A stretch of 64,000 nucleotides of DNA, taken from positions 62,001 through 126,000 of the forward strand of contig JAEUHS010000033.1 in assembly GCA_016794035.1 (NCBI GenBank), in the 5' to 3' direction. The notes below the pieces were generated by a model. The model ran no database searches. It saw only the letters and a list, made by a program, of their open reading frames with translations, and was not told the DNA's origin. Of the stretch, positions 2,107-64,000 are shown in pieces. The position numbers were made by a program, and so were the translations under genes. Positions within the stretch are counted from its first letter, which is position 1, and each line of letters starts with the position of its first letter. The stretch is from Planctomycetota bacterium (GTDB taxonomy: Bacteria; Planctomycetota; UBA1135; UBA2386).

Positions 2107-4584
2107 ATGGACGACACCGAGCCGGCAGGACCGTCCGGAGCGAAGCGGGTTACGCCGGGAACGGAGCCGCGCGTGCCGTCGGTCGCCACGGACGCCGCCC
2201 ACGAACTGCTGGCGCGCCTGCAGGCGGAGCCGCAGCGCGTGGCGCGCTACCGGGTCGAGGAGGAGATCGGACGGGGCGGCATGGGCACGGTGCTGCGCGC
2301 CGTCGACCGCGAGATCGGGCGACGCGTGGCGATGAAGGTGCTCGACGTGCGCGTCGCCGAGCGGCAGGACCCGGACTCGGTCGCGGACCGCACGCGGCGC
2401 TTCCTCGCGGAAGCCCAGCTTGCGGGTCAACTGGACCATCCGGGCATCGCGCCCGTGCACGAATTGGGACTCGACGCGCAGGGCCGCGTGTTCTTCACCA
2501 TGAAGCTGGTGCGCGGTCGAACGCTGACCGAGGTGTTGGACCTGCTGACGCGGCGAGAGCAGGGCTGGACGGAAACGCGCGTGCTGGCGGTGATCCAGCG
2601 CGTCTGCGAGGCGCTGGCGTTCGCCCACGCACGCGGCGTGATCCACCGCGACCTGAAGCCGGACAACGTCATGATCGGCCGCTTCGGCGAGACCTACGTC
2701 ATGGACTGGGGGCTCGCGCACGTGCTCGGGGACGGCGAGTCGGTGCACAAGCCCGCGACGGCGATGGTGACGAGCAACCTGCACACGGTGCGCGACACGC
2801 CCGACGCCGACGCCGGATCGCCCTTGCTGACGGCCGACGGCATGGTGATCGGCACGCCGGCCTTCATGGCGCCGGAGCAGGCCGAAGGCCGCGTCGCCGA
2901 GCTGTCGCCTCGCACCGACGTCTATGCGGTCGGCACCCTGCTCTACCAACTGCTGACCGGCCAGGTGCCGTACGCGAGCACCGGCGTCGTGCAGTCGCCG
3001 CGCACGATCCTGGCGCGCGTGCTCTCGGGCCCGCCGACGCCGGTGCTCGAACTGAAGCCGACCGCGCCGGTCGACCTCGTCGCGGTCTGCGAGAAGGCCA
3101 TGGCCCGGCGCGCGGACGATCGCTACCCGGGCACGATGGAGTTGGCCGCAGACCTCGAGGCGTATCTGGAGCGGCGGCCGGTCGCCGCGCGCCAACTGGG
3201 CTTGCTGCACGCGCTGCGGCTCCGCATGGCGCGCAATCGGGCCGTGGTCGTGACGACGGCCGTCGCGATGCTGGCGCTCGCCGTGCTCGGCACCTGGTTC
3301 CTGCTGCGGGTCGCCGAGGCGCACCAGCGCGAACAGCTGGTCGCCGACCTGATGACGGCGCAGGCACTGGTCGAGGCGGCGAGCAGCTCGTTGACCCCGC
3401 GGGCTCCGGACCAGTTCGCTCGTACGTCGCGATGGGCCGAGCGAACCACCGCACTGCTGGACCGCGCCGGCCGATACCGCGAGGCACTCGCGCAAGGCGT
3501 GCTGGCGCCGTTCCTGCCCGACGAGGTGCAGCGCCTGCAGCGATTGCTCGACGAGCTGACCGCGCGACGCGCCGTGGTGCGCGAGGAGATGCGGTTGGCA
3601 GAGAGGGTGGCGGCAGAACCGACCCGGTCCGTACTCGCACTCTGGCAGCCCGTGCTCGAGCAGATCCGCAGCACGGCGCACTACGCAGGCATCGATGACG
3701 TCGCGCAGCCGGGCCTGCTGCCGCTGCGGCAGAACGACGCCGGCTTCTGGCAGTTCCTGTTGCTCGGCTCCGGCGACGAGCCACCCTTCGACCCGGTCCG
3801 CGGGGTGTACACACAGGATCCCGGTTCGGGCGTCGTGCTGGTGCTGCTGCCCGGCGGCGAACTGGCACTCGGCTCGTCGTTCGACGAAGCCAACGAACTG
3901 CCACACCGCGCGGTGCTCGCCCCGTTCCTGCTGGCGGCGCACGAGGTCACCCAAGGGCAGTGGCGCAGACTGGTCGGCAACAACCCGTCGCGTCGCCAAC
4001 ACGGCATCGACTACGACGAGATCGCCTACGACGACCGCCACCCGGTCGAGAGCATCAGCTGGTACGAGGCGGAACGCTTCGCCGCGCTGTGCTGGGCGCG
4101 CATGCCGGGCGAGGACGAGTTCGAGTACGCTGCGCGCGCGAAGTCCCCAGGCGAACGCTGGTTCGACGGGCACGAGCCGACGGACCTGCAAGGGTACGAG
4201 AGTCTGCGCGACCTCGCGTTCCGGGACGGCGGCGCACAGCTGCCGTGGAACGACGGCTTCCCCGAACACGCGCCGGTCGGCACGTTCCGGCCCAACTCGT
4301 TTGGCCTGTTCGACGTCGGCGGCAACGTGTCGGAGTGGACCCGGGACTACTACGGCCGCGAAGACGCGGCGCACCTCGGCGAGCCGGACGCCGACCGCCC
4401 CGATGCGCTGCGGCTGCGCGTCGTGCGCGGCAGCAACTGGGGCGAGCCGGAGGCGCGCCTGCGCGCTTCGTACCGGAAATTCCAGCGACCCGACTACTGC
4501 TCGCACTGGCTCGGCATGCGCCTCGCGCGCAGCTGGATGAGCCGGGAGCAGGTCGCCGGACTCAGGGCGGCTTTCAGCCGCTGA
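2107..4584 (+). CDS. Ser/Thr protein kinase fused to an FGE-sulfatase (SUMF1-like) domain
   Basis: This 825-residue protein has an N-terminal Hanks-type kinase domain, a single transmembrane helix (about 379-401), a helical linker and a C-terminal formylglycine-generating-enzyme-like domain (about 575-815). Kinase motifs are the glycine loop GRGGMG (55-60), Lys77 in AMKVL, catalytic HRDLKPDN from residue 180, and a metal loop that reads DWG (200-202) instead of DFG. The FGE module shows PGGELALGS, HEVTQGQWRRL, GGNVSEWTRDYY and VVRGSNW. In such fusions the C-terminal module usually faces the periplasm and may sense or bind ligand; whether it is an active oxidase is unknown. The 3' end overlaps the convergent gene at 4574 by 11 bases. 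Confidence 0.92.
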   Translation: MDDTEPAGPSGAKRVTPGTEPRVPSVATDAAHELLARLQAEPQRVARYRVEEEIGRGGMGTVLRAVDREIGRRVAMKVLDVRVAERQDPDSVADRTRRFLAEAQLAGQLDHPGIAPVHELGLDAQGRVFFTMKLVRGRTLTEVLDLLTRREQGWTETRVLAVIQRVCEALAFAHARGVIHRDLKPDNVMIGRFGETYVMDWGLAHVLGDGESVHKPATAMVTSNLHTVRDTPDADAGSPLLTADGMVIGTPAFMAPEQAEGRVAELSPRTDVYAVGTLLYQLLTGQVPYASTGVVQSPRTILARVLSGPPTPVLELKPTAPVDLVAVCEKAMARRADDRYPGTMELAADLEAYLERRPVAARQLGLLHALRLRMARNRAVVVTTAVAMLALAVLGTWFLLRVAEAHQREQLVADLMTAQALVEAASSSLTPRAPDQFARTSRWAERTTALLDRAGRYREALAQGVLAPFLPDEVQRLQRLLDELTARRAVVREEMRLAERVAAEPTRSVLALWQPVLEQIRSTAHYAGIDDVAQPGLLPLRQNDAGFWQFLLLGSGDEPPFDPVRGVYTQDPGSGVVLVLLPGGELALGSSFDEANELPHRAVLAPFLLAAHEVTQGQWRRLVGNNPSRRQHGIDYDEIAYDDRHPVESISWYEAERFAALCWARMPGEDEFEYAARAKSPGERWFDGHEPTDLQGYESLRDLAFRDGGAQLPWNDGFPEHAPVGTFRPNSFGLFDVGGNVSEWTRDYYGREDAAHLGEPDADRPDALRLRVVRGSNWGEPEARLRASYRKFQRPDYCSHWLGMRLARSWMSREQVAGLRAAFSR

Positions 4585-22934: not shown

Positions 22935-25472
22935 CTACCTGGTCAGCGCGCGGGTCGGACGCGAGCGCACGAGGGCAGCGGCGCCGTGTTCGCCGCGGCG
23001 ATCCAGGGCCTTGGCGTGCAGTTCGCGCGCGACCTGGTCGACCCCCTTCGCGAGCTCGTCGGCGCGCTCGGCGACCGCGAGCTCCCGATCGTCGCCGCTG
23101 GCCTGCGGCGACTGCGAAAGGGCGGTCGCATAGTCGAGCCAGGCAGCCGCGTCGTCCGGCCGGCGTTCGGCCCAGCGCCGGTGCTCGGCCAGTGCGGCCG
23201 GCGCGTCGCCGGCCGCGTCGAGTGCATCGAGCAGCTGGGCATGCACGCGTTCGTGATCGGGATGCGAACGCGAAAGCGCGGCGAGATTCTCGACGGCCTC
23301 CGCGGCCGCATCGGCGCTGACCAACGCGAACGCGAGGTCGAGGCGAGCTTCGAGTTCGTCCCCGTTGGCGGCGACGGCACGTCGCATCAGGTCGAGCGCG
23401 GTCTCGTGATCGCCGCGGCGCCACGCGGCGCGACCGGCGAAGCGCAGGGCCGCGGGCTCGTCGGCGACGACCGCGAGCCAGTCGTTGGCGAGCTCCCCGG
23501 CGACGGCGTCGTCGATCTGCGCGACGATGGCGAGCAGCCTGCGACGCATCGGCACATCGGACCCCATGCCGTGGAACGCATCACGCAGCATCGCCAGCGC
23601 GGCAACGAGATCGCCACGGCGCATCAGGGCGAGGCCGAGGTTCGCCTGCACGTGCGCATTGGCACCACCGAGTGACAGGGCACGGCGCAACAGCTGCTCG
23701 GCGCGTTCGGGTTCGAGCGACACGAGGCACGCACCCGACAGCTGCAACGCCAGCGGATGCTCCGGCCAGATGCGCGACAACGCCTCGGCCACCTCGCGCC
23801 GCTCCGCAGGCCCGCCGCCGTTGCAGACGACGGCCGCCCACTGCGCGTACAGGACCAGGTTCGGGCGGGGCGAGATCCGTACCGCGAGCGACAGCAGGTC
23901 CCGGGCGCGCCCCAGCGCCCCCGGGTCGGCTTCGCGACCCTCGATGCCAAGCAACGCCTCGAGCCACAGGCCCATCGACGACGTCGGTGGTCCGAGCGAG
24001 CGCCGGAGCGCATCCGCCTCCGGCTGACGCTGCACGCGTTCGAGCAACCACGCGCGACAGCGCGCGAGGTTCTCGTCCCCATCGTCCATGGGACGGGCCT
24101 CGAGCTCCGCGAGCGCGGCGGCGGGACCACGGCTGCGCGAGGCGGCGAAGACCAGTCCCAGCACGGCCTCGCTGCGCGATGGGTCACCGCGGATCGCCTG
24201 CTCGAACCATCGCCGCTCCGCAGCCGCGTCGCCGCGCGCCAGGAAGCCGTTCACGACCGCGTCGTCGTAGGCGCGTTGCCGTTCGGCGGCCGCGGCAGCT
24301 CGCAGCTGCGGCCATTGCACGCCGATCCAGACCGACATCGCCAGCGCGATCATCGCGAGCAGGGCGAGACCGGCCACCGCGGGTTGGCGCCGCATGCGAC
24401 GCACCATGCGCCGCATGCGGGATGGCGCCCGCGCCGTGACCTCGCGCAGATCGAGGAACGCGCGCAGGTCGCCGGCGAACGCGTCGGCGGTCGCGTAGCG
24501 GCGTTCCGGCTCCTTCTCGAGCGCCTTCATGACGATCGCGGCGAGGTCGGCCGGCACGCCGCGGTTGAGCCGTCGCGGATCGGGCGGATCGTCACGGACG
24601 ATCGCCGCGAGCGATGCGGCGATCGACGGACCGGCGAACGCCGGACGCAGGGTCGCGCACTCGTACAGGGTCGCGCCGAGCGAGAACACGTCGGAACGAC
24701 GGTCGCACGCCGCCCCCCCGTGCAGGACCTGCTCGGGCGACATGTACCGGGGCGATCCCAGCACCGCGCCCGCGTTCGTCAGGCTCGGATCCCCCCGGTC
24801 CCGGGCGATCCCGAAGTCGGTCAGCACCGGGTGGCCGTCGCTGCGCAACAGGATGTTCGATGGCTTGACGTCCCGGTGCACGACGCCCGCCTCGTGCGCA
24901 TGGTGCAGGGCCTGAGCGATCCTCGCGATCGCCATCACCAGGTGGCGCAGGGAGTCCCCGGTGTGGCCGCCGGCAGCCGCCAGTTGATCGATCCGTGCCG
25001 CGAGCGACACGCCGTCGACGAACTCCATCGCCAGCCAGTGACGCCCGCCGGTTTCGCCGACACCCAGCACCCGCACGATCTCCGGATGGTCCAGTCGCGC
25101 CAGCGTCTGCGCTTCGCGGCGGAAGCGCACCAGCGCGGTCGCGCTGTCCGCGACGTCCGGCAGCAGCACCTTGACCGCGACCCGTCGCCCGAGCAGGCGA
25201 TCGCGCGCTTCGTGGACGCGGCCGGTACCGCCCTGCCCGACGATGCGACCGAGACGGTAGTCGCCGAGCAGTTCTCCGCCGCTCGACACCGGGCCTGACG
25301 GGGCCGGCGGATCGCTGCTGCGCACCGTTGCGTCCTCGTCGCCGCACATCGCGGTCAGCAGATCGGCGAGCTCCGGGTTGCCGGCCAGCACCTGCTGCCA
25401 GTCGCCGCCGTCCAGCCGATGCGCCACGAACAGCCCAAGCGCACGTTCGAGACGGTCCGCGGATTCGTTCAT
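22935..25472 (-). CDS. Ser/Thr protein kinase with TPR-like repeats
   Basis: The 845-residue product has a Hanks-type kinase domain (GQGGTG loop at 79-84, Lys101, HRDVKPSN from 200, DFG at 220-222, SPRYMSPEQ), a transmembrane helix (about 361-385, VAGLALLAMIALAMSVWIGV) and a long C-terminal helical region of tetratricopeptide-like units (for example NLGLALMRRGDLVAALAML). A short acidic N-terminal extension precedes the kinase. It lies 16 bases downstream of an ECF sigma factor gene, the common planctomycete pairing in which kinase and sigma factor form one signalling unit. Ligand and targets are unknown. Confidence 0.93.
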   Translation of the reverse strand: MNESADRLERALGLFVAHRLDGGDWQQVLAGNPELADLLTAMCGDEDATVRSSDPPAPSGPVSSGGELLGDYRLGRIVGQGGTGRVHEARDRLLGRRVAVKVLLPDVADSATALVRFRREAQTLARLDHPEIVRVLGVGETGGRHWLAMEFVDGVSLAARIDQLAAAGGHTGDSLRHLVMAIARIAQALHHAHEAGVVHRDVKPSNILLRSDGHPVLTDFGIARDRGDPSLTNAGAVLGSPRYMSPEQVLHGGAACDRRSDVFSLGATLYECATLRPAFAGPSIAASLAAIVRDDPPDPRRLNRGVPADLAAIVMKALEKEPERRYATADAFAGDLRAFLDLREVTARAPSRMRRMVRRMRRQPAVAGLALLAMIALAMSVWIGVQWPQLRAAAAAERQRAYDDAVVNGFLARGDAAAERRWFEQAIRGDPSRSEAVLGLVFAASRSRGPAAALAELEARPMDDGDENLARCRAWLLERVQRQPEADALRRSLGPPTSSMGLWLEALLGIEGREADPGALGRARDLLSLAVRISPRPNLVLYAQWAAVVCNGGGPAERREVAEALSRIWPEHPLALQLSGACLVSLEPERAEQLLRRALSLGGANAHVQANLGLALMRRGDLVAALAMLRDAFHGMGSDVPMRRRLLAIVAQIDDAVAGELANDWLAVVADEPAALRFAGRAAWRRGDHETALDLMRRAVAANGDELEARLDLAFALVSADAAAEAVENLAALSRSHPDHERVHAQLLDALDAAGDAPAALAEHRRWAERRPDDAAAWLDYATALSQSPQASGDDRELAVAERADELAKGVDQVARELHAKALDRRGEHGAAALVRSRPTRALTR

Positions 25473-47223: not shown

Positions 47224-50187
47224 TCAGCGACCGTTCGAGGTCAGCACGAAGGCCGCCCACATGGACGCCGGATCGCCAGCCTGCCGGCGATCCCGCTGTG
47301 CACCACGGAAGGCAGCGGCGAGGTCCTCGCGGTTCTGCCACAGCCGATCGTAGAAAGCCGCGAAGAAGCGCTCGGCGCCGACGTCGTCCACCTGCCATAG
47401 CGTCGTGATCGTGTGGCGCGCGCCGGCGGACAGCAGCGCCGCGTTGAGCCCCGTCAGGCCCTGTCCGAACGAACGCGCGCCCACGTTCGTGTTGCAGGCG
47501 GACAACACGATCAGCTCGCAGCTGCGCAGGTCGAGCGTCGCCAGCTCGGCCGCGGTGACGATCGACATCTCGCGTCCGCCGGGCTGAGGGTGGCGGTTGG
47601 CGCCCGCCAGCACGATGCCGGCCCGGGCCCGCCGCAGCGCTTCGAGGTCGCGCTCCTGCTCGCCGTGACGGCCGCCGGTTGTGCCCCACAGTGGCTCAGG
47701 CGTGACGAACGCATGCGTCGCGAGGTGAGCGTAGCGGACCTTCGGCAACAGGCCGTACAGGTAGTGCGCATTGGCGTGCGCGCCATCGCAGTTCCACACC
47801 TCGCCGTCCGGATGCGCGGCGCGAAACCGTCGCTCGACTTCGTCGCGCTCGCGCGCCGCCCCGGGCAGTCGGGGCCAGTGGACATCGGCGGCGAGGCCGA
47901 TCACGCGCGCCAGGCCCCGCGCTGCGTCGGCGGGAGGGGTGCCTGCGATCTGCGGCGGGTCGTCGAACGCGACATTGCCGAACGCCAGGAGCCGCGGGGC
48001 CGCGTTGCTCGCCGGCCGCGCGACCATCGCGAGTGGGCCGCTGACGTGACGCACGGCAGGCGGTTCGGTCCAGCCAGCGTCGACCAGCATCACTTCCCAC
48101 GGCACCGACGCGAGGGCGCCGTCGGCGGCGACCCACAGCGTGTCGAGGTCGCGCGGCAGCGCGTCGAACAGCGGCCGGAGACCGTCGCGCAGGCTCGCGA
48201 GATTCGGATCCTCGGCGGCAACCGGAGCGCCGTCGGTCGGATGGCGGCCGCGGTTGCCGCTGCTCGACGAGAGGCACCGGTCGCGCAGAGCCTGGCAGCC
48301 GAGCTGGAGCGCCCGCGCGGCGCCGAGATCGATGCGTCGCACGCCGGTGCCGGTGGCCACGAACGCCGCGTACCGCGCGCCGAGCTGCGGACCGGCAGCC
48401 GGCCCATCCTGCCAGCCGACGCGCTGGCGGTGGCCGGCCGTCAGCACCAGCGCCTCCCGCGGCGGCAGTGCCCGCACGGTGTCGGCGGCCCGCACAGGCG
48501 CCACCAGCCGCTGCACGCCCGGCAGCGCCAGCAGCCTCTCGACGAGGGTCTCGTCGTAGAGCAGGAACGCCTGCGGCGGCGGTTCGGATCGGTCGCCGTT
48601 CCAGCGCCGATCGATCGCCAGCGCGCGCATCAAGTCCTCGCCGCGGTCGTGCAGCAGCACGAACAGCAGCTGCTGCACGAGCCCGTCGTCGCCGGCGGCG
48701 GCGACCTCGTCCAGCAGGCGCACCCGTTCCTCGTGCAGGCTGCGCACCGCCGAGGCCAGCCCGAAGACGCGCTCGGCGTGCGCCGGGTCGGCGTCCGCCA
48801 GGAGCCGCTCGACGCGGTCGGCGAGCCACGCCCGCGTTGGCGCATCGGGTCCACCGAGCAGCAGGCGCAGCCGGCCAGCACCCTCGAGATGTCCGGCGAG
48901 GTCGCTCTCGAGCAGGCGTACGGCCGCCGGGCGTTGTCCGTCGGCCGCCAGGCTGTCCGCGAACGCCAGCGTGTCCGCTGCGCGGTCGATCATGCGCCGC
49001 AGCCCGACGCTGACCAGCGTCGACGTCTTCGGCAGCGCCGCCTCGGCCGCCCCGCGCAGTTCGCGCACGCGCTGCCACTCCTTGGCGGCGCCTCGGTGGT
49101 CACCACCCATCGCCCGCACACGCGCCAGGTGGGACGTCACGAAGTAGTGGTCCAGGGCGCCGTCCTCGCGGTCGCGCCACGTCTTGCGGAGGCGCTCGAG
49201 CTGCTCGACGCCGCGTTTCGTGGTGCCGCGCGCGGCCTCGACCAGCGCCAGCTCCAGCGCCACCGACTCGAGGGTGGCGGCGCCGAGGTGCTTCGTCGAG
49301 CCGTAGAGCCGTCGGAACAGCTCCGCGTCTGCTTCGAGGAAGCCGTCGACCACCAGTCGCGCGCAGGCGACGAGCACCGCGCCGGTCCGATCGTCCGGCA
49401 CGTCGCTCGCGTCGTCGTCCCAGCTCAGGAATGCCGCGAGCTCGTCCTGCCACGCCGCCAGCATGCTGCCGCGCCAAGGAGGTGGTTCGACTTCCGTGCT
49501 CACCGCGCCGAAGACCTGGTCGGCGGCGGTCGAGGCGGCTTGTGCACCCGCGCCGGTCAGGCGGGCGAGAGCCACAGCGTGGGAGGCGCGCCACATGGCC
49601 AGCTGGGTCGCCCGTTCGGAGCGCAGATGCGGCGCGTAGCGCGACGCGGGCGCCACGCGAACCAGGTACTCGCCGTGCAAGTCGGCGAAGTCGGCCAACC
49701 AGTCCCGCAGTGCTTGCCGCCCGGCCAGGAGCCGGCTGGCTGCCGCATGCTGGGCGCGGGCAGGCGCGAGTGCGCCGCGGTTGCTTGCCGCCGCGGCCTC
49801 GAGCGCGGCCGGCAACTCGGTGCCGACGAAGTCGGGGCGCGGCCGGGCGCGCGCCGGTGCGGCCGGCAACAGGGCTGCCCGCACCAACTGCTCACCGATC
49901 GCTGCGTCGCCGAGCATGACCGCGAGCGCGGCGACCGCCGGCGCGAGTTGGCGATCGGCGTCGCCCTTCGCGTCGGCGCGCCCGCGCGATTGCGTCCAGT
50001 CCTGCAGCCCACGCAGCGCCCGGCCGAGCCCCGCCTGGAGCGCCCGTTCGTGTACGACCGCGAATTCACGGTCGGCCGCGGCGACAGACGCATGCGGCCG
50101 ATAGGCGGCCGGTGGACCGGCCTGCGCGTGCGCCCACGGCGCGAGCACTAGGACCACTGCCTTGGCGACCAGACCCCTGTTCGTCAT
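47224..50187 (-). CDS. Exported CHAT-domain (caspase-like) protein
   Basis: The 987-residue product starts at ATG 50187 behind a strong GGAGG, with a signal peptide (LVAKAVVLVLAPWAHAQAG). The first two thirds are helical, with TPR-like character. The C-terminal domain has the CHAT hallmarks: the catalytic His in KVRYAHLATHAF (about residue 826) and the catalytic Cys in LRSCELIVLSACNTNVGA (about residue 896), followed by TTLWQVDD. CHAT proteins are caspase-family proteases, usually cytosolic and TPR-associated; export is unusual. No gasdermin-like neighbour is seen. Confidence 0.88.
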   Translation of the reverse strand: MTNRGLVAKAVVLVLAPWAHAQAGPPAAYRPHASVAAADREFAVVHERALQAGLGRALRGLQDWTQSRGRADAKGDADRQLAPAVAALAVMLGDAAIGEQLVRAALLPAAPARARPRPDFVGTELPAALEAAAASNRGALAPARAQHAAASRLLAGRQALRDWLADFADLHGEYLVRVAPASRYAPHLRSERATQLAMWRASHAVALARLTGAGAQAASTAADQVFGAVSTEVEPPPWRGSMLAAWQDELAAFLSWDDDASDVPDDRTGAVLVACARLVVDGFLEADAELFRRLYGSTKHLGAATLESVALELALVEAARGTTKRGVEQLERLRKTWRDREDGALDHYFVTSHLARVRAMGGDHRGAAKEWQRVRELRGAAEAALPKTSTLVSVGLRRMIDRAADTLAFADSLAADGQRPAAVRLLESDLAGHLEGAGRLRLLLGGPDAPTRAWLADRVERLLADADPAHAERVFGLASAVRSLHEERVRLLDEVAAAGDDGLVQQLLFVLLHDRGEDLMRALAIDRRWNGDRSEPPPQAFLLYDETLVERLLALPGVQRLVAPVRAADTVRALPPREALVLTAGHRQRVGWQDGPAAGPQLGARYAAFVATGTGVRRIDLGAARALQLGCQALRDRCLSSSSGNRGRHPTDGAPVAAEDPNLASLRDGLRPLFDALPRDLDTLWVAADGALASVPWEVMLVDAGWTEPPAVRHVSGPLAMVARPASNAAPRLLAFGNVAFDDPPQIAGTPPADAARGLARVIGLAADVHWPRLPGAARERDEVERRFRAAHPDGEVWNCDGAHANAHYLYGLLPKVRYAHLATHAFVTPEPLWGTTGGRHGEQERDLEALRRARAGIVLAGANRHPQPGGREMSIVTAAELATLDLRSCELIVLSACNTNVGARSFGQGLTGLNAALLSAGARHTITTLWQVDDVGAERFFAAFYDRLWQNREDLAAAFRGAQRDRRQAGDPASMWAAFVLTSNGR

Positions 50188-50535
50188 GCGGCCTCCGGGG
50201 GGCAGCAGCATAGCGGTCGCTCGTCGCGAATGCCCACCCGGTGTTCTGGCCCTCCGGCGACGGACCGAACAGGTGACGGCATCGCCGCCGGGATCACCCG
50301 CGCCTGCGCCGTCGCCGCGTGGCGACGGCGTCCGCACCTCGGTGCCAGCTCGGCAGCGGGTGATTCTGACGTGGGAGCGCCCGGGCCGCGTGGTGTTCGG
50401 GGGCATGTTGTCGGGGGTTGCAGGGCCGGGAATCATCGTGGTCGCGCGGTTCGGGGGGCCGGGCTGCAGTTCGTTCGTACTGTCCCCCCGTACTCCCATC
50501 TCGCGGCGCCGCCGCGATGTGTTAAGCATGGCGTC
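50188..50535. other. Spacer of about 350 bases with a perfect hairpin
   Basis: This divergent spacer precedes the CHAT gene and the flavin-reductase gene. It contains a perfect 9-bp stem with 4-base loop at 50308-50329 (GCCGTCGCC, GCGT, GGCGACGGC). Toward the right end it is G-rich on the plus strand (runs of five G). No reading frame with good codon use is seen. It should hold promoters for both genes. Confidence 0.5.
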
Positions 50536-51379: not shown

Positions 51380-53770
51380 TCACTTGGTCGGGCGCGCGCC
51401 GGCGAGATCGCTCCAGAACGCCGACTCCCAGTAGGCCTCGAGCGCCGACAGCTTGTCCTCGTCGTTGCCCTCGCGCTGGGCGACGCCGAGTTGGTAGGCG
51501 TAGCGGGCGGCCATGGGCACGAAACCGACCGTGCGTTTGGCCTTGGCCGCAGCCTCGCGCGCGAGCTGGCGGGCGAGGTCCAACTGCGCCGACAGTGCCT
51601 TGCGGTTCGTCAGCGTCAACGTGCCCTGAGCGTCCTGCTGGCCGCCGAGCGAGTAGTACTTGTTGATCAGCGACGCACCCTTGAGGAACGCCATCGACCC
51701 GGCGGCGAGCCGCAGCAGGTTCGTCTCGTGCTTCTTGCCCTCGATGCCCTCGGCGAGTCGAACGGCGCGCAAGGCCAGCAGGTAGTCCAGGTCGTTCTGC
51801 GCCAGCCGGTTCTGCGCCGTGGCCTTGTCGATACCGGCCTCGCGCGCGATGTCGTCGATCGTCAGCGACTCGAGGTATGCGAGCACGGCACCCGCCGCCG
51901 AACCGTAGGCCTTCGCCGCCTTGCCGATCACCGCGGAGTCGATGGGCGCCGTCTGCCCCTCTTCGTTGCCGAAGTCCTGTTGGTCGCGGGCGACGTCGAG
52001 CATCGTCCGTGCGACGCCGAAGTACCGCAGCGCGTTGAACAGGCTCTCACCGAGCTGCGTGCCCTGCTTCTCGTCGAGCTGCTTGTCCTTCGTGGCGTCG
52101 AGGATCGCCTTCGCCTGCGCGAAGGCGGAATCGCCGAGCGACGTCAGCGACTCGCCCACGACGAGCGCGTGGAACGCGCGCAGCGTGTTGATCTGGCCGC
52201 CGCCGGTCGTGCGCTTGGCCTTGATCTCGACTTCGGCCATGAAGGCCTCGAGCTGCCCTTTGACGGTCGCGGCGGCCTCGACCTGGGCGACGAGGTCCTG
52301 GATGTCCTGCTGTTGCGCCGACTTCATGAAGCGCGCCGCGTCCTTCGTCATGCCGGCGAGAACGGCCGCTTCCACGTAACCGTCGTAGGAGGAAGCCAGG
52401 AAGTCGCTGCGTTCGAACTCCTGCGCCTTCTTGAACGCCGCATCGGCCTGCTGCGCGAGCGGCATGATCGTGTTCTTCAACTCGTCGTTGCCACCCCGCG
52501 CGAGGCTGCCGAGATTCGCGACTTCGCTGTCGAGACGGGCCTTCCACGCTTGGTTCTTGGCGCGCAGACGCGCCGAGGTGTCGCTGTCGAGTTCCATCTC
52601 GCCCTCGGCGACGGGGGCCGGACGCGCGAGGTCGTTGCCGGTGAGGAACTTGTAGCCCTCGAAGACATCGTGGATCTCCACGACCTCGAGCCCGAACTCC
52701 TTGCCGGCGTCGAACAGGTCGACGGTGCGGCCCGTGCGCAGATCCTGGTGGTTGCGGGCGCCCATCGGGAAGCCGAACCGCTTGATGCCGGCCTTCGCCG
52801 CTCCCTCCATCTTCTGCACGATGCCGCCGACGGGTCCCGCAGAGCCATCCGGGTTGATCGTGCCGGTCATCGTGGTGTCCTCGCGCAGCGCCTGGCCGCG
52901 CAGCAACGCCACCATCGTCGCAGTCATCAACATGCCCGCCGACGGGCCGTCGATGTGTCCGCCGGTGCGCACGAGGAATTCGTAGTCGGTCAGGCTCTGA
53001 CCCGTCACCTGGCTCGCGCTGAATGCCGCCAGCCACGTGGCGGTGCGCCACTGGTTGCCGGCACCGCCGGCGAACTCCTCCATGACGCCGACGCTCGGGC
53101 CTTCCTTCGTGTTCGGCGAGATGCGGACCGTCGTCGGCGAAGTGCCGCCGCTCGCCTGCGGACCGGTCGGACCGCGGAACCAAACCGCCTTCACGGTCGC
53201 TTCGCGCGGGGCCTTCAGCGACAGCTTCGCCGGAGCACCGGCCCCGGTGCCGCCGTCCCTGCTCGCCTTCGCTTCACCGCCGCCCCTGAAGAACAGGAAC
53301 GCCGCGGCCGCCAACACGAGCACGCCGGCGACGAGCCCGACCGTCTGCTTGCTGGCCACGGCCACCCTCCCGGAGACGCGCACCGCAGAGGGCAGCGTCT
53401 GGATCGCAGTGTCTCTCGTGTGCCCACCCGGAGCGACCATGCTCCTCGTGCTACCGTTCGCGTCGACCGGGCCCTTCACCTGCAAGAGTTCGATCGACCC
53501 GTTGCCGATCTTGAACTGCACACCGGGCGTCATGCGCTCCTCCGTCACCCTGCGGCTGCCGATCCACGTCCCGTTGGTGCTGCCGGCGTCCCGCAAGACG
53601 ACCTTGCCGTCCACGAAGTCGATCTCCGCGTGACGCGCCGAAGCACCGGAGTCGTGCATTGCGATGTCGCCGGTCTCGCGCCCCACGACGAGATGGCCCT
53701 GGTCGAACTCGTGATCGGCGGGAGCCTGCTTCTCGCGGCGGATACGCAGGACGAACGACGGCTTGGTCAT
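51380..53770 (-). CDS. FHA domain-transmembrane-Lon-like (S16) serine protease fusion
   Basis: The 796-residue product starts at ATG 53770. Residues 1-100 form an FHA phosphothreonine-binding domain (HLVVGRETGDIAMHDSGASA then RHAEI, DAGSTNGTWI). A transmembrane helix spans about 143-161. Residues about 185-370 match the Lon proteolytic domain: GGHIDGPSAGMLMTATMVAL with Ser277, MTGTINPDGSAGPVGGIVQK with Lys320, then AGIKRFGFP. The Ser-Lys spacing of 43 equals that of E. coli Lon S679-K722. A 420-residue helical C-terminal region follows. No AAA+ ATPase domain is present. Confidence 0.9.
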   Translation of the reverse strand: MTKPSFVLRIRREKQAPADHEFDQGHLVVGRETGDIAMHDSGASARHAEIDFVDGKVVLRDAGSTNGTWIGSRRVTEERMTPGVQFKIGNGSIELLQVKGPVDANGSTRSMVAPGGHTRDTAIQTLPSAVRVSGRVAVASKQTVGLVAGVLVLAAAAFLFFRGGGEAKASRDGGTGAGAPAKLSLKAPREATVKAVWFRGPTGPQASGGTSPTTVRISPNTKEGPSVGVMEEFAGGAGNQWRTATWLAAFSASQVTGQSLTDYEFLVRTGGHIDGPSAGMLMTATMVALLRGQALREDTTMTGTINPDGSAGPVGGIVQKMEGAAKAGIKRFGFPMGARNHQDLRTGRTVDLFDAGKEFGLEVVEIHDVFEGYKFLTGNDLARPAPVAEGEMELDSDTSARLRAKNQAWKARLDSEVANLGSLARGGNDELKNTIMPLAQQADAAFKKAQEFERSDFLASSYDGYVEAAVLAGMTKDAARFMKSAQQQDIQDLVAQVEAAATVKGQLEAFMAEVEIKAKRTTGGGQINTLRAFHALVVGESLTSLGDSAFAQAKAILDATKDKQLDEKQGTQLGESLFNALRYFGVARTMLDVARDQQDFGNEEGQTAPIDSAVIGKAAKAYGSAAGAVLAYLESLTIDDIAREAGIDKATAQNRLAQNDLDYLLALRAVRLAEGIEGKKHETNLLRLAAGSMAFLKGASLINKYYSLGGQQDAQGTLTLTNRKALSAQLDLARQLAREAAAKAKRTVGFVPMAARYAYQLGVAQREGNDEDKLSALEAYWESAFWSDLAGARPTK

Positions 53771-54077
53771 GGGAGCGCGTGGATCGAAGTGGATGACGCC
53801 CGCGGCCACCCCGCGTCTTCCAGCCGGTCGCTCGGCGGGGACGCGAGCCATGTGGCCCCAGGCGCACGGCAGCGTGGACTCCGTGGGCCAGACGCTCAAG
53901 TGGACCTAGTGCGGTCGCCATCACGGGCATTCGAGCGCGGGCACGCACTCGGAGCTGCCCGAGTACGCAGAACGGCGCGTTCGCAGTCGCGTGACGGCGT
54001 TCCATCATGGCGGTGCATCGTCCAGAGGTCGCCGCCCTCGGCACGTCGCGAGTCATGACTCGGCGAAGGATGTCCCC

Positions 54078-57323: not shown

Positions 57324-59906
57324 TCACGGCGCAATGGCCGCGGCGATGGTCTGGAAGAACCGCGCCGACCACTCGGCATGGCGCGGTCCGACCTGCCGGC
57401 GCACCTGAGCGATCACGAGTTGCTGCTCCGGGTCGATCACGAAGATGCATCCCGAGAAGGAACCGTGCCCGAGGGTGCGCGGGCCGTACAGCAGGTCCTC
57501 GGGACGTCGAGAGCCTGCAGCAGCGCCCGGCTTCAGGTGGTGGACCCAGTGGATGCCGATGCCCTCGTCGGCGGTGTGTCCGCGGTCGGCAACCTGCAAC
57601 GGCTCGGGAAGGAGCTTCTCGAAGGTCTGCGGGGTGATGAACTCCCATTCCCCGTAGCTCCCCCGATTGGCGACCCACTGGGCGAGGATGCCGAGTTCCA
57701 TGGCGGTGAACTCGCCATCGGAGCTCGCATTGCCGATCGGCACATCGCCGAACCCGAGCGGCCGGAACAGGTGTTCGTCGTAGAGCCGCACCGCGCTCCG
57801 GCCCGCGACCAGTTCCATCGCCTTGGCGGCGATCTCGAACCCCATGCCGCTGTATTCGTACCTCGCGCCCGGCGTGTTGGCGTCGATCGCATTGAGAACG
57901 AGGTTCTCGAGGTGTGGATTCCGCATGCCGCCGAAGTCGCCGTGGCCAGACAGGCCACTCGTGTGGTTGAAGCACTGGCGGAACGTCGGGACGCGCGGAT
58001 CGTCCGATGGGTAGTCGGGGAAGACCTTCGACAACCGGTCGTCGAGCGCCATCAGCTCCTGGTCCAGGAACCTGCTGAAGAGCAGCGCGGTGACGGTCTT
58101 GGTGATCGAGCCCACCCAACAGCGGTAGTCGAGCGTCACCGGCTTCCCGCCCCTGTCGACGCCGAAGGCCTCGTGCGTGACGACCACACCATGCCGAGCC
58201 ACGAGGGTCACGAACGGTTCGCCGGTGTCCGCCGCCCACGCCTTGCAGACGGCGTCGAGGTTCGACTTCGCATCGTCCCGCATGCCAGCCTCCTGCCACG
58301 AGCCCTGGTGCAGCACGGTGGCAGGTGCATCGCGGCGGCGCGGCGGCTTCAGCGGGCGAACGCGCGGCCGCAGTCCCTGCAGCTCGAGCTTCAGGGCCAG
58401 ATGGGCGTCGTCGTTCAGGACCGTTGCCGATTCGACGAACCGCGCGGGTCGGCCCAGCGGCACGAACTCGGCGAGTCCCGCCAGGAGGATGGCGCCTGGC
58501 TCGCTGTCGAGAACCGCCTGCGGCACGACGCTCGACGCTGCGCGCGTGAATTCGGCCTGGTGCTCCCGCAACACCTGCGGGGCGTTCGGACCGGGGAAGT
58601 ACGGCATGACGACCGTGAAGTCGGGCACGTAGCCACCGGCAACCGTCGTCGGCAGCGCGTAGAACGTCATTGCGCGCCGGAGCGGCGTTCCATTGGGAGC
58701 GGTGCCTTCGATCCAGGCGATCCACCGCCCGGGCGAACCGGGAACGTCGCTCTCGTTGCAGTTCGCGTCGAACCAGCGCACGCGCAGCGGACCGTGGAAG
58801 CCGAGCCGCCGGACCTCTTCGAGGTCGCGCCAGACGATGCGGGGCGGCTCACCAGGCTTGAACAACCAGGTCCCGTGCCTGGCCGGGATCAACTCCTGGG
58901 ATGCGAACCGCAGCGCATCCTCACGTCGACGGATTCGGTCCTCGTCGCCGCTCGGCGGCGGGGCGGCCTTCGCTGGCGACGCAGGCGGCTCGCCGAACGC
59001 CGCGCGGTAGAACGCCCAGTTCTCATCGCCCATCGCGCGGAGCACGCCCATCGGATCGTGCGCCACACCGGGCAGCACCGACCACGTGTGCGGAATCTCG
59101 AGGCGCTGCAGGTGCTCGTGGAACTCCCTGTTGGGAACGAACGCCTCGTCCTCGGCGCCGATCACGATGCGGACGAGCGAGCCGCGCGCGATCGACCTGG
59201 CGTTCTGCTCGGCCAGCGTGCGCGGGCTGGAGCTGCGGAAGTAGTCCTGATCGCCGCCGTAGACGGTTGCCAGCACCTCCGCCACTCGACGCCGTCCGGC
59301 GCGCGGTGGCTGGATCAGTTCGGCCTGCATCGGCCCTGCCCCGACGATCGAGACGGCGCGGAACAGTTCCGGATGCTCGAACCCCAGCCGCGCCGCGCCG
59401 TACCCACCCATGCTGAAGCCGTCGAGCATCCGCCCCTCCCGCGCCGCGATGGTGCGGTTCGTCGAGTCGATGTGCGGCACGAGTTCCGTGACGATGACCG
59501 TCTCCAGCGGGACCGAGCCATCCTTCCAGTCGACGTACATGCCATCGACGAGGCCATTGACGAACACCACGAGGCACGGCGGCGCCTTCCCCGACTCGAC
59601 CGCCGCATCGAAGTGTCGGGCGACCTCAGGGATCCCCTCGAGGCCGCCCCCCGAGCCGTGCAGCCAGTAGACCACCGGAAAACGCCGCTCCAGTTCGCGG
59701 GTGTACGCGGCCGGCACGTAGAGGTGGTAGCTGACCTTGGCCTTGGCCGCGACGCTGTCGAAGGTGTGGAAGGTGACGCGCGTGGCCCTGACCGCGGGCG
59801 TGACCCACTCGACCTCGGGCGGTCGCGAGGGTCTGGTGAGACCGCCTGACTGCGCTGTCACCGCAGCGGCCGTCGACAACAGGGCCAAGAGCCATTTCCA
59901 AGCCAT
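57324..59906 (-). CDS. Esterase (Fes/EstD-like) fused to a class C beta-lactamase-family domain
   Basis: The 860-residue product starts at ATG 59906 (GAGGAG 9 bases upstream) with a signal peptide (MAWKWLLALLSTAAAVTAQ). The N-terminal alpha/beta hydrolase has FPVVYWLHGSGGGLEG, the nucleophile elbow GFSMGG (Ser165) and a later VAHDPMG His. The C-terminal half is a serine beta-lactamase/penicillin-binding-like domain with SITK (Ser600-Lys603), YSG where YSN is usual, and HGSFSG near the end. Two hydrolases in one exported chain suggest processing of a wall or surface ester substrate. The second domain is intact except for the Asn change. Confidence 0.88.
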   Translation of the reverse strand: MAWKWLLALLSTAAAVTAQSGGLTRPSRPPEVEWVTPAVRATRVTFHTFDSVAAKAKVSYHLYVPAAYTRELERRFPVVYWLHGSGGGLEGIPEVARHFDAAVESGKAPPCLVVFVNGLVDGMYVDWKDGSVPLETVIVTELVPHIDSTNRTIAAREGRMLDGFSMGGYGAARLGFEHPELFRAVSIVGAGPMQAELIQPPRAGRRRVAEVLATVYGGDQDYFRSSSPRTLAEQNARSIARGSLVRIVIGAEDEAFVPNREFHEHLQRLEIPHTWSVLPGVAHDPMGVLRAMGDENWAFYRAAFGEPPASPAKAAPPPSGDEDRIRRREDALRFASQELIPARHGTWLFKPGEPPRIVWRDLEEVRRLGFHGPLRVRWFDANCNESDVPGSPGRWIAWIEGTAPNGTPLRRAMTFYALPTTVAGGYVPDFTVVMPYFPGPNAPQVLREHQAEFTRAASSVVPQAVLDSEPGAILLAGLAEFVPLGRPARFVESATVLNDDAHLALKLELQGLRPRVRPLKPPRRRDAPATVLHQGSWQEAGMRDDAKSNLDAVCKAWAADTGEPFVTLVARHGVVVTHEAFGVDRGGKPVTLDYRCWVGSITKTVTALLFSRFLDQELMALDDRLSKVFPDYPSDDPRVPTFRQCFNHTSGLSGHGDFGGMRNPHLENLVLNAIDANTPGARYEYSGMGFEIAAKAMELVAGRSAVRLYDEHLFRPLGFGDVPIGNASSDGEFTAMELGILAQWVANRGSYGEWEFITPQTFEKLLPEPLQVADRGHTADEGIGIHWVHHLKPGAAAGSRRPEDLLYGPRTLGHGSFSGCIFVIDPEQQLVIAQVRRQVGPRHAEWSARFFQTIAAAIAP

Positions 59907-60179
59907 CGCTGCCATCTCCTCGCGCGCGATCGGGACGAGCAAGCCGCGTCCCGATCCACCCGGACCCAGCCCCGGCACGATCATCGTCCCTTTGCGTCGC
60001 GTCAACACCCGGCCAGACCTCCCCGCGGGCGCTTCGCGATCGTCGGTGGAGTTGCCGCCGCGCCAGTTCGACACATGGGCACGTTCCTCCGCGACGGCGT
60101 CGCATGCTCGTAGAGGGCGAGCCGGAGTGCCGCCGGGGCCCGCGCGCGTCCGCGCCGCCGCCGAGCGCGAATCGCCCCG

Positions 60180-61832
60180 TCAGAGGTTGATCGCGAACAC
60201 GGCGTGGGCGGGCGACTCGATACTGCCGATGCGAAAGCTCACGATTGCGACGGAGTAGGTGCCGGGGTCCAATCGGACCCTGGACGGAAACAGCCAACGG
60301 AACGAGCGCTCTCCCTTGGCCTGCACCTCGATGACTTGTGTCCGGTTCTCCGGGTTCACGGGCGACACGTCCCGTCCTGCGTTCCGGAGGCGCACGTCTC
60401 CGAGCTCGAACGAGATCGCCAAGTCTCTGTCGTTCCTGATTCGCACGGAGACTTCGACGCCCGCCTTGCTGTTCTTGACCTTGAGCACGTCGAACAGAAG
60501 GTCCGCGCTGCGAGTGGTGGGTGGCTGCGCCACGCTCGTCCATTCGTCGCCGGCGATCGAGCCCGCGAGCCAGGTTCCGGCTGCGCCGACGATCAATGCC
60601 AAGACGATCGCCGGGACCAACGCAGGGTTTCGCCGTGCGATGCGACCCACGCTCGTGCGCCATGCGCTCAGCGGGCTGCTGCGCCGCGCGAGCACCCGCT
60701 CCCCAGCGAGGAATCGGCGCAGGTCCTTCGCGAACTCCTCGCACGACGCGTAGCGGTCGCGCCGCGCCTTGGCGATGGCCTTCATCGTGACGGCGTCGAG
60801 TCCGTTGCGCAGCGAACCCGCGAGCTCTTGCAGGCGGCAGCGGCGCAGTTTCAGGATCTCGTCCCGCGAGTTCTTCAGGCTGCTCAGCCGCTGCCGCGGC
60901 GTCGGCGGCTCCTCTTCGCGGATGCAGCGCTGCACTTCGAAGTAGCCCTTCGCGCGCGCCGCCTTGAAGTCGAACGGCAGCACGCCCGCCAGCAACTCGT
61001 AGAGCACGACGCCGAGCGAGAACACGTCGGAGCGCGCGTCGACGTCCTGCGCCGACGTCTCGGCCTGCTCGGGGCTCATGTACTCCGGCGTGCCGATGAT
61101 GCGCCCTTCCTCGGTGAAGAGCGTGCGCTCCGTCAGCCGTTGGTTGGTCGCCTTCGCGAGACCGAAGTCGATCACCTTCACGACGGGCTTGCCGTCGATC
61201 TCGGTGACGAGCAGGTTCGTCGGCTTGACGTCGCGGTGGAGGATCCCGCGATCGTGAGCATGCTGCAGCGCGGCGCAGGCCTGCAGCAGCAACTCGAGCC
61301 GCTCCTTCACCGACAGCCGGTTGTCGTCGCAGTAGCGCGTGATCGAGACTCCGCGCACGAGTTCCATCGCGAACCACGGCCGCCCCGTGGCCGTGGCGCC
61401 GGCGTCGAGCACCTTGGCGACGTTCGGATGATCGAGCAGCGCCAGCGCCTGGCGCTCGGCTTCGAACCGCGCGAGCACCTCCTTCGTGTCCATCCCGACC
61501 TTGATCACCTTGATGGCGACGCGGCGTCGGATCGGTTCGCGCTGCTCTGCCGCATACACCACGCCCATGCCGCCCTCGCCGAGCACGTCGAGGATCCGGA
61601 ACGGACCGAGGCGATCGGGGTGCGATGGGCCGTCGTCCCGGGTCGTTCGCGATCTGGCGTGGTCGCGGCGGGTCGTGAAGCGGCGTCGAAGTTCGTCCGC
61701 GAGATCCGGGCGGCTGGCGCAGGCTCGTTCGAGTGCCGCGGCGTGGGCCGCGGCAGGTTCGGCGAGCAGGGCGTCGAGGAGCGCTTCGATCGGGTCGTGG
61801 TCGCGCCTGTCGTTCCGGTGCTCGGTCCTCAC
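60180..61832 (-). CDS. Ser/Thr protein kinase, membrane anchored
   Basis: With a GTG start at 61832 the 550-residue product has an N-terminal acidic segment (DPIEALLDALLAEPAAAHAA), a Hanks kinase domain (GEGGMG at 85-90, Lys108, HRDVKPTN from 199, DFG at 222-224, GTPEYMSPEQAE), a transmembrane helix (about 403-425, PAIVLALIVGAAGTWLAG) and an external beta-rich domain of about 125 residues. No good ribosome-binding site is seen, so the start is uncertain. A truncated paralogue of its N terminus lies at 46826. Divergent from the TIR gene, 243 bases away. Confidence 0.92.
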   Translation of the reverse strand: MRTEHRNDRRDHDPIEALLDALLAEPAAAHAAALERACASRPDLADELRRRFTTRRDHARSRTTRDDGPSHPDRLGPFRILDVLGEGGMGVVYAAEQREPIRRRVAIKVIKVGMDTKEVLARFEAERQALALLDHPNVAKVLDAGATATGRPWFAMELVRGVSITRYCDDNRLSVKERLELLLQACAALQHAHDRGILHRDVKPTNLLVTEIDGKPVVKVIDFGLAKATNQRLTERTLFTEEGRIIGTPEYMSPEQAETSAQDVDARSDVFSLGVVLYELLAGVLPFDFKAARAKGYFEVQRCIREEEPPTPRQRLSSLKNSRDEILKLRRCRLQELAGSLRNGLDAVTMKAIAKARRDRYASCEEFAKDLRRFLAGERVLARRSSPLSAWRTSVGRIARRNPALVPAIVLALIVGAAGTWLAGSIAGDEWTSVAQPPTTRSADLLFDVLKVKNSKAGVEVSVRIRNDRDLAISFELGDVRLRNAGRDVSPVNPENRTQVIEVQAKGERSFRWLFPSRVRLDPGTYSVAIVSFRIGSIESPAHAVFAINL

Positions 61833-62075: not shown

Positions 62076-64000
62076 ATGCCGGACGGGTTCTACGACGCGT
62101 TCCTGAGCTACCGCCACGCCGAACCGGATGCCACGCTGGCTCGCTCCCTGCATACGCTGATCGAGTCCTACTCGCTGCCCGCTCGAGTAGCGCGGGCACT
62201 GGGGCGGCCAAGGCGCCTGCGCGCATTCCTCGACGATCTGGAAGTCGCGGGGGCCTCGAGCCTCACCGCGGAACTGACCAACCGGCTGCGCGCAGCCCGG
62301 AGCCTGGTCGTCCTGTGCACACCGCGCGTCAAGGAATCGCAATGGGTCGCATGGGAGATCGAGGCTTTCCGCGAGCTGGCACCAACTCGTGTGTTCACTG
62401 TGCTCCTGGAAGGCGAGCCGGGCCCATCGATCCCGACGAGCCTGTTCGACCCAACGGCGCCGACGAAACAGGCGTTGTTCATCGACTTTCGCAAGCGGGG
62501 CGCCGCCCGTCGCGCGGAGTTCCTCCGTCTGATCGCGAGCCTGCACGGATGCGATTTCGACGAACTCGCGCGCCGCGACCTGACCCGAAGGCGGCGTGCG
62601 TGGGTGTCCATGTCGCTGGCCGGGATCGTGCTGGCGGGCACCATCGTCGTGTACGAACGACGGACGCAGGGAGTCGTGGCCGAGAGTCGGAACGAAGCGG
62701 CGCGCGTCGTGGTCGAGCAGAGCAAGTCCGAGCTAGCGACCGTCGAGAGCATCGCTGATTCCCGAGCCACCATGGACGTCGGCGGCCTCGTGCGCCAGCT
62801 CGGGCGACAACGCTTCTCGACCAAGGGCGGGCTGGGCTTCCAGCGCAAGCGATTGGATGGCGACCTCGCCAGCGATCTGGGCAAGGCGGCCGAGGCGCTG
62901 GAGTGCTACGTCGCTTCGCTGGCCGAACTCGACGCCTTGGTCGCGGCGCAGGGCCCCACCCCGGACTTGCTGCGGGAGCGGGCAGTGGCCATCGACCGCC
63001 AGGCCGATGCGCTGCTTGCCATGGGACGGCTCGCAGCCGCGCGAACGGCCTACGAAGCCGGCATCGTCGCGGCACGGCAACTGGTCGCGGGCGATCCGGC
63101 GAACCGGAGAGCCCTCTCGTTCCTGCTGGTCGGTCGCGGCGACGTGGCGTGCGACGAGGGACGCGCCACCGCCGCAATGGAAGACTATGACGAGGCCGCA
63201 CGGATCAGGATCGAGCTCGCCCGGGTCGGTGGCGACGAGGACGAAATCGACGTGGCGACCGTGGAGGTCAAGTGCGGCGACGCACGGTCGCTCGCGGGCC
63301 GGCTCGTCGACGCGCTGGGGTTCTATGCTGCCGCGCGGGATCGGCTCGCGACGCTGCAGACGCACTTGGGCCGTGACAAGCGGGTCGTGTCACTCCTGGG
63401 AGTGGCACGGCAACGCGTTGGTCATGCGCTGCTCGACAGTGGCCAGGTTCGAGAGGCCCTGCAGGAGTTCCAGCAGGCATCTCGCGACCTCGCGGTCGCA
63501 TCGCAGCGCGACGAAGAGAACATGGTGGTCCTCCAGCTGGCGGCCGACAGTCATCGCTGGATCTCGGACGCCTGGGTGTCCCAGGGTCGCCTCGCGGACG
63601 CGGCAACCGAATGCGAGACGGCTGTCGCCGCGATGCAGCGACTCTCGGACGCGGATCCCGACATGGTTGCATGGCGCGTCGCGGCGGCGCGGTCAGCGGT
63701 CAACTGCGCCTATGTCAAGGACCGCCAAGGCGACACGGCCTCGGCGATCGAGGTGCTCCGCGCCCAGTTGGTTCGCCTCGGCAACGACGATGGCAACCAG
63801 GACGGCATCGACAGCATGGATGCGCGTGCCGACGTGCTCAGGGCCCTCGGACAGCTGCTCGCGACGTCCGGAGCAGTACCGGCGGCAGTCGATTGCTCGC
63901 GGCAGGCACTGGCCGTGCGCGACCGGATCGCGAAGGCGACCGGAGCGGCCAGCGACCGCATCCGCCTCGGTGATGCACATCACGCATTGGCGCACACCCT
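62076..64000 (+). CDS. TIR domain-transmembrane-helical repeat protein, 3' end outside window
   Basis: The open frame from ATG 62076 continues to the window end without a stop (641 residues visible). Residues 1-150 form a TIR domain: DGFYDAFLSYRHAEPDAT, a FLDD segment, and SQWVAWEIEAF in which W90...E94 matches the WxxxE pattern containing the catalytic Glu of NAD-consuming TIR domains. A transmembrane helix follows (about 176-193, WVSMSLAGIVLAGTIVVY), then a long helical region of TPR-like units (LLAMGRLAAARTAYEAGIVA, HALLDSGQVREALQEFQQAS). Codon use is mixed, less GC-biased than in neighbours. Immune signalling or defence is a plausible role. Confidence 0.85.
   Translation, partial: MPDGFYDAFLSYRHAEPDATLARSLHTLIESYSLPARVARALGRPRRLRAFLDDLEVAGASSLTAELTNRLRAARSLVVLCTPRVKESQWVAWEIEAFRELAPTRVFTVLLEGEPGPSIPTSLFDPTAPTKQALFIDFRKRGAARRAEFLRLIASLHGCDFDELARRDLTRRRRAWVSMSLAGIVLAGTIVVYERRTQGVVAESRNEAARVVVEQSKSELATVESIADSRATMDVGGLVRQLGRQRFSTKGGLGFQRKRLDGDLASDLGKAAEALECYVASLAELDALVAAQGPTPDLLRERAVAIDRQADALLAMGRLAAARTAYEAGIVAARQLVAGDPANRRALSFLLVGRGDVACDEGRATAAMEDYDEAARIRIELARVGGDEDEIDVATVEVKCGDARSLAGRLVDALGFYAAARDRLATLQTHLGRDKRVVSLLGVARQRVGHALLDSGQVREALQEFQQASRDLAVASQRDEENMVVLQLAADSHRWISDAWVSQGRLADAATECETAVAAMQRLSDADPDMVAWRVAAARSAVNCAYVKDRQGDTASAIEVLRAQLVRLGNDDGNQDGIDSMDARADVLRALGQLLATSGAVPAAVDCSRQALAVRDRIAKATGAASDRIRLGDAHHALAHT

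Follow-up and report, generated by a model that had tools for sequence, protein, structure and literature searches.

The question raised by this locus is how a Lon-type protease could operate in a protein that carries no AAA+ ATPase, and what a phosphopeptide-binding domain might contribute to it. The gene lies in a 64,000-nucleotide stretch of planctomycete DNA (hereafter the window). An original prediction, made from the letters alone, had placed an FHA domain, a transmembrane (TM) helix and a Lon S16 domain with an intact Ser277-Lys320 dyad in one protein, and had proposed its control by phosphopeptides through the Ser/Thr kinases of the window.

Domain architecture of the FHA-S16 protein

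The gene is an ATG-initiated open reading frame of 796 codons on the minus strand, with coordinates of exactly 51380-53770, and alignment places its start methionine at the same position in orthologs. Its features are as follows.

51380..53770 (-) whole gene: FHA, linker, TM helix, linker, S16 domain and helical domain, 796 aa
53504..53689 (-) FHA domain, residues 28-89 (Pfam PF00498, E 2e-11, 44.5 bits)
53285..53347 (-) TM helix, residues 142-162, the strongest hydrophobic segment (KD mean 2.5)
52640..53209 (-) S16 (Lon-type) proteolytic domain, residues ~188-377 (Pfam Lon_C, Foldseek, conservation)
52940..52942 (-) codon of Ser277, predicted nucleophile, in the motif IDGPSAG (alignment)
52811..52813 (-) codon of Lys320, predicted general base, in GGIVQK (alignment)
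51383..52639 (-) C-terminal all-helical domain, residues 378-796, ~420 residues (model)

Both the FHA and the Lon_C matches exceed the curated Pfam cut-offs. A full-length AlphaFold2 model built with 11 related sequences is confident for the FHA domain, the S16 domain and the all-helical C-terminal part; the low-complexity linker in which the TM helix is embedded (residues 101-182) is disordered, with pLDDT <50. Mean pairwise identity is highest in the S16 domain (0.84), lower in the FHA domain (0.59) and lowest in the linker (0.37). Six further genomes of this planctomycete family carry full-length orthologs of 60-65% identity; the order of domains is therefore no artefact of assembly or gene fusion. 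The Pfam matches, the hydrophobic segment and these orthologs bear out the predicted union of FHA domain, TM helix and S16 domain in one protein; the C-terminal domain and a neighbouring PDZ gene had been absent from that account.

When modelled alone, the C-terminal part gave a pLDDT of 86.7 and a pTM of 0.87. No PDB structure matched the fold of this helical domain at E<=0.001 and no Pfam family matched it above cut-off. Its last ~110 residues are nearly as conserved among planctomycetes as the S16 domain. The domain order is thus genuine and conserved and seems not to have been described before; it consists of known parts and one unmatched helical domain. Searches for RNA families and tRNA genes found none within the 64-kb window.

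The proteolytic domain and the missing ATPase

The Pfam Lon_C family (PF05362) matches residues 274-344 (E 5e-12, 46.2 bits vs a cut-off of 21.1), and both the model and conservation extend the S16 domain beyond this match. Ser277 and Lys320 are separated by 43 residues, the spacing found in Lon. In an ungapped alignment with E. coli Lon (1RR9), S277 falls on the position of Ser679, which is Ala in that mutant, and K320 falls on Lys722; these are the dyad residues as numbered in PMC2605481. Compared by Foldseek with Lon of E. coli, the S16 model gave target TM-scores of 0.73-0.78 for the proteolytic domain in most chains, and of 0.67-0.78 against isolated Lon proteolytic domains; this part, as modelled, has the Lon proteolytic fold and does not contradict the prediction. 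All seven planctomycete orthologs keep Ser277, Lys320 and Asp274, as do four relatives from Myxococcota. An active enzyme fits these data because the S16 domain is the most conserved segment of the protein, and catalysis by Ser277-Lys320 is probable.

No AAA+ domain was found in the protein by Pfam, NCBIfam or structure search, as had been predicted, and the NCBIfam Lon models match the proteolytic part only. An AAA+ domain in the C-terminal region would have overturned the prediction; one hidden in that half is ruled out, as no Pfam AAA family scored over cut-off and no PDB structure matched at E<=0.001. A role as the Lon replacement of the organism is likewise ruled out, since the host genome encodes a canonical Lon and a LonB-type protein elsewhere. 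Spread of the gene by plasmids was considered and rejected: the ten plasmid matches listed align with no more than 12-19% of the query, and those with an annotation are labelled lon.

Relatives and distribution

Within the planctomycete class the family was detected in 7/154 genomes, all belonging to one family-level group. One of these genomes (G031) also holds a second, diverged protease copy (L046, G031:C31:99-1922), which the contig start truncates before any FHA domain could appear. A scan of GTDB contigs recovered the same FHA-TM-S16-helical order in two Myxococcota (L027, L028), together with proteins made of the S16 and helical domains only, with no FHA domain (L029, L030). Searching 195 Myxococcota genomes with an S16-helical profile gave 13 positives, most of which, where the N-terminus is readable, begin with a signal peptide judged typical by eye. 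One distant planctomycete (G494) carries the signal-peptide form as well (L062). A phylum search with a broader profile, considering the best three candidates per genome, found no further full-length Planctomycetota members beyond the family (f1) and this genome. In the tree the FHA forms are grouped (support 90/97), and the chief Myxococcota group with signal peptides (100/100) stands apart from them. This topology fits a single acquisition of the FHA-TM module together with transfer from one phylum to the other, which may have run in either direction.

These relatives also bear on whether the S16 domain might be a pseudoprotease or scaffold that binds peptides or the PDZ protein without cutting them. 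One Myxococcota clade of signal-peptide members of this exported family has exchanged the catalytic lysine for Met in L053 and for Arg in L054, L056, L057 and L058. This clade is likely to consist of pseudoproteases, and the loss of the lysine in these relatives indicates that the S16 fold can also serve without catalysis. Purified YlbL, a membrane-bound S16 protein, was likewise inactive in vitro (PMC6051672). The serine, the lysine and Asp274 are, however, invariant in every FHA-bearing member, and no region is better conserved than the S16 core; we regard a non-catalytic role for the window protein as improbable.

Membrane topology

The strongest evidence on topology comes from the relatives in which the FHA-TM module is exchanged for a signal peptide. 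In seven proteins (L029, L030, L051-L054 and L062) the S16 and helical domains stand directly behind a signal peptide, which argues for a periplasmic location of the S16-helical block. The charges flanking the TM helix agree weakly with an N-in/C-out orientation: positive charge before the helix is equal to or greater than that after it in 9/9 FHA forms, being tied in the window protein and in L023 and in excess before the helix in most of the others. Taken together, the TM helix, this weak positive-inside bias and the export of the homologous domain lead us to infer, strongly, a single-pass protein with a cytoplasmic N-terminus and a periplasmic protease half.

No ATP is expected in the periplasm, and the missing AAA+ domain therefore needs no special explanation. 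The original prediction had remarked that Lon normally needs an AAA+ unfoldase activity, absent in this protein. The absence stands; it poses no puzzle, as the protease half appears to be extracytoplasmic and ATPase-less S16 proteins, namely YlbL/SepM and LonC, were already known. The view of the protein as a membrane-tethered Lon-type Ser-Lys protease devoid of AAA+ is retained on the basis of the TM helix, the dyad and the lack of an AAA+ match.

The FHA domain and its relation to Ser/Thr kinases

Assignment to the FHA domains is supported by homology and by the GR, SxxH and N positions of phosphothreonine (pThr) binding. The canonical residues G30, R31, S44, H47 and N66 are invariant in 9/9 FHA-bearing proteins from two phyla, and R31, S44, H47 and N66 fall within the motifs GR, SxxH and STNG. 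Binding of phosphothreonine by this domain is therefore probable, and this conservation makes regulation of the protease by phosphorylation plausible.

Planctomycete and myxobacterial genomes each encode from tens to more than a hundred Ser/Thr kinases; in the host genome there were 49 kinase matches, a few of them being pieces of a single gene. Three kinases are encoded in the window (2173-4584, 22935-25472 and 60180-61586), the first of which, on the plus strand, is fused to a formylglycine-generating-enzyme (FGE-sulfatase) domain. A kinase lies within about 10 kb at 4/7 FHA loci vs 1.7 expected (P = 0.06). As this enrichment is not significant, kinase gene linkage is not counted as support, and the connection to kinases rests on FHA biochemistry from other systems and not on gene order. 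The proposed phosphopeptide control through the kinases of the window is accordingly plausible from the conservation of the FHA site only, and its appeal to proximity is unsupported.

FHA-TM modules also head a number of proteins of ~600-700 aa in genomes of the family and the order (L008, L009, L012, L013, L016 and L018). In the three that were scanned (L008, L012 and L018), the large part after the FHA domain gave no Pfam match. Because such modules head other large proteins, the FHA-TM unit appears to be in general use in the lineage. This raises the possibility that it is a mere localisation anchor, placing a constitutive periplasmic protease near phosphorylated membrane complexes with no switching of activity. 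Its presence at the head of many unrelated proteins resembles a general anchor, relatives manage with a signal peptide alone, and the linker between the FHA and S16 domains is so long, disordered and poorly conserved that the protease is unlikely to be gated allosterically and directly through the membrane. Against this, the need for pThr binding would remain, and for anchoring alone a mere signal peptide or a lipobox would have been enough. We consider an anchor of this kind possible but doubtful.

The PDZ neighbour and its surroundings

The protease gene is flanked upstream by a divergently oriented gene for a predicted secreted PDZ protein.

53771..54077 (.) shared intergenic region, 307 bp, between the two divergent start codons
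54078..55964 (+) divergent neighbour, predicted secreted PDZ protein, 628 aa (PDZ_6, E 1.3e-7)

The N-terminus of the neighbour is signal-peptide-like. No sigma-70-type promoter match was found in the 307-bp intergenic region, the sigma-70 consensus being uninformative for this organism. A PDZ gene adjoins the protease gene in four genomes and in both orientations; the homologs next to L021 and L022 run in the same direction as the protease gene and that next to L025 is divergent. G027 lacks the PDZ gene, and in G030 and G033 it lies on a contig other than that of the protease gene. Strong PDZ homologs are present in 6/7 protease-bearing genomes of the family vs 2/27 of those without the protease (Fisher P = 1.4e-4, a value that ignores kinship, since genomes of a single family are not independent samples in phylogenetic terms). 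Apart from the PDZ gene, conserved neighbours are shared between close relatives only. These observations make it plausible that the PDZ protein is a functional partner of the protease, a PDZ domain being supplied in trans.

A further reading would make the protein's own chain or the PDZ neighbour the main substrate, for instance through release of the helical domain. ATP-free Lon-type proteases cut unfolded chains, as reported for LonC (PMC3391209), the window protein has long flexible linkers, and the PDZ gene is a conserved neighbour. The linker is variable, which speaks against such self-processing, and we judge this reading very unlikely.

Several other genes of the window encode hydrolase or signalling domains. 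Close to the protease gene, a 995-aa protein (47224-50211, minus strand) carries a C-terminal CHAT (caspase-like) peptidase domain. A putative esterase domain is fused to a beta-lactamase-type serine hydrolase domain at 57324-59984 (minus strand), and a TIR-domain protein with TPR repeats begins at 62076 on the plus strand and continues past the window end at 64000.

Comparison with known systems

Membership in the S16 (Lon) peptidase family is supported by homology, fold and dyad positions, from the sequence and the model. The window protein shares the S16 fold and dyad with the ATP-dependent LonA and LonB and falls outside both, having no AAA+ domain in the same chain. The precedent for an ATP-free membrane S16 protein is YlbL, which has a TM helix, Lon and PDZ domains and the residues S234/K279 (PMC6051672). 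YlbL/SepM (NF041438) resemble the window protein in their single TM helix, extracytoplasmic S16 domain, Ser-Lys dyad, lack of AAA+ and involvement of a PDZ domain. Their PDZ domain is, however, fused to the S16 domain, whereas in the window system it is encoded by a separate neighbouring gene, and the window protein adds a cytoplasmic FHA domain and the ~420-residue helical domain after S16. It also scores 30 bits against NF041438 (cut-off 200) and has no PDZ match of its own, which places it outside that family.

LonC (MtaLonC, TTC1975), which degrades unfolded protein without ATP (PMC3391209), is similar in having an S16 domain without a working ATPase. It possesses a large N-terminal fragment for which a degenerate AAA-like domain has been proposed; the window protein has no such domain, its S16 domain being preceded by FHA-TM and a disordered linker and its extra domain being helical and C-terminal, and it is thus no LonC member. 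An FHA-FHA-trypsin protein of Bacteroides thetaiotaomicron (NP_811686.1) also joins FHA domains to a serine protease, though one of trypsin family S1 with a different fold (PMC2605481). The same paper, a survey of 117 S16 proteins, contains no mention of an FHA-S16 fusion in the part available, and no FHA-Lon fusions were found in the open-access literature. Other FHA-TM proteins (those with the YscD-like FHA domain PF16697 and the ~690-aa proteins of this family) similarly combine a cytoplasmic FHA domain, one TM helix and a large part beyond it; in the window protein that part is a protease, whereas in the others it is a scaffold or unassigned. ATP-independent, membrane-bound S16 proteases are an already known class, and it is the arrangement with FHA that appears to be new.

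Proposed function and significance

On balance, we lean towards an inner-membrane, periplasm-facing, ATP-independent Ser-Lys protease that is recruited or controlled by pThr proteins through its cytoplasmic FHA domain. The FHA domain would bind a protein that one of the many Ser/Thr kinases has phosphorylated on threonine. On the other side of the membrane, the S16 and helical domains would cleave either unfolded or flexible chains or particular proteins of the envelope, by means of the Ser277-Lys320 dyad and without ATP, and the choice of substrate probably falls to the helical domain and the secreted PDZ protein acting jointly. Cytoplasmic phosphorylation would recruit, cluster or gate the protease, amounting to an inside-out control of envelope proteolysis. 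The narrower version of this proposal, in which cytoplasmic pThr read by the FHA domain acts as a true switch of the periplasmic Lon-fold protease and the helical domain and PDZ protein form a substrate adaptor, is put forward tentatively.

To our knowledge, few outputs are known for the Ser/Thr kinases of planctomycetes and myxobacteria. A cytoplasmic phospho-reader joined to a periplasmic protease would be a directly testable output of this kinase network. The protein is distinctive in that a helical domain replaces the ATPase module and that its putative PDZ partner comes from a separate gene, not fused as in YlbL/SepM, and it enlarges the short list of Lon-fold proteases for which ATP-independent activity is expected.
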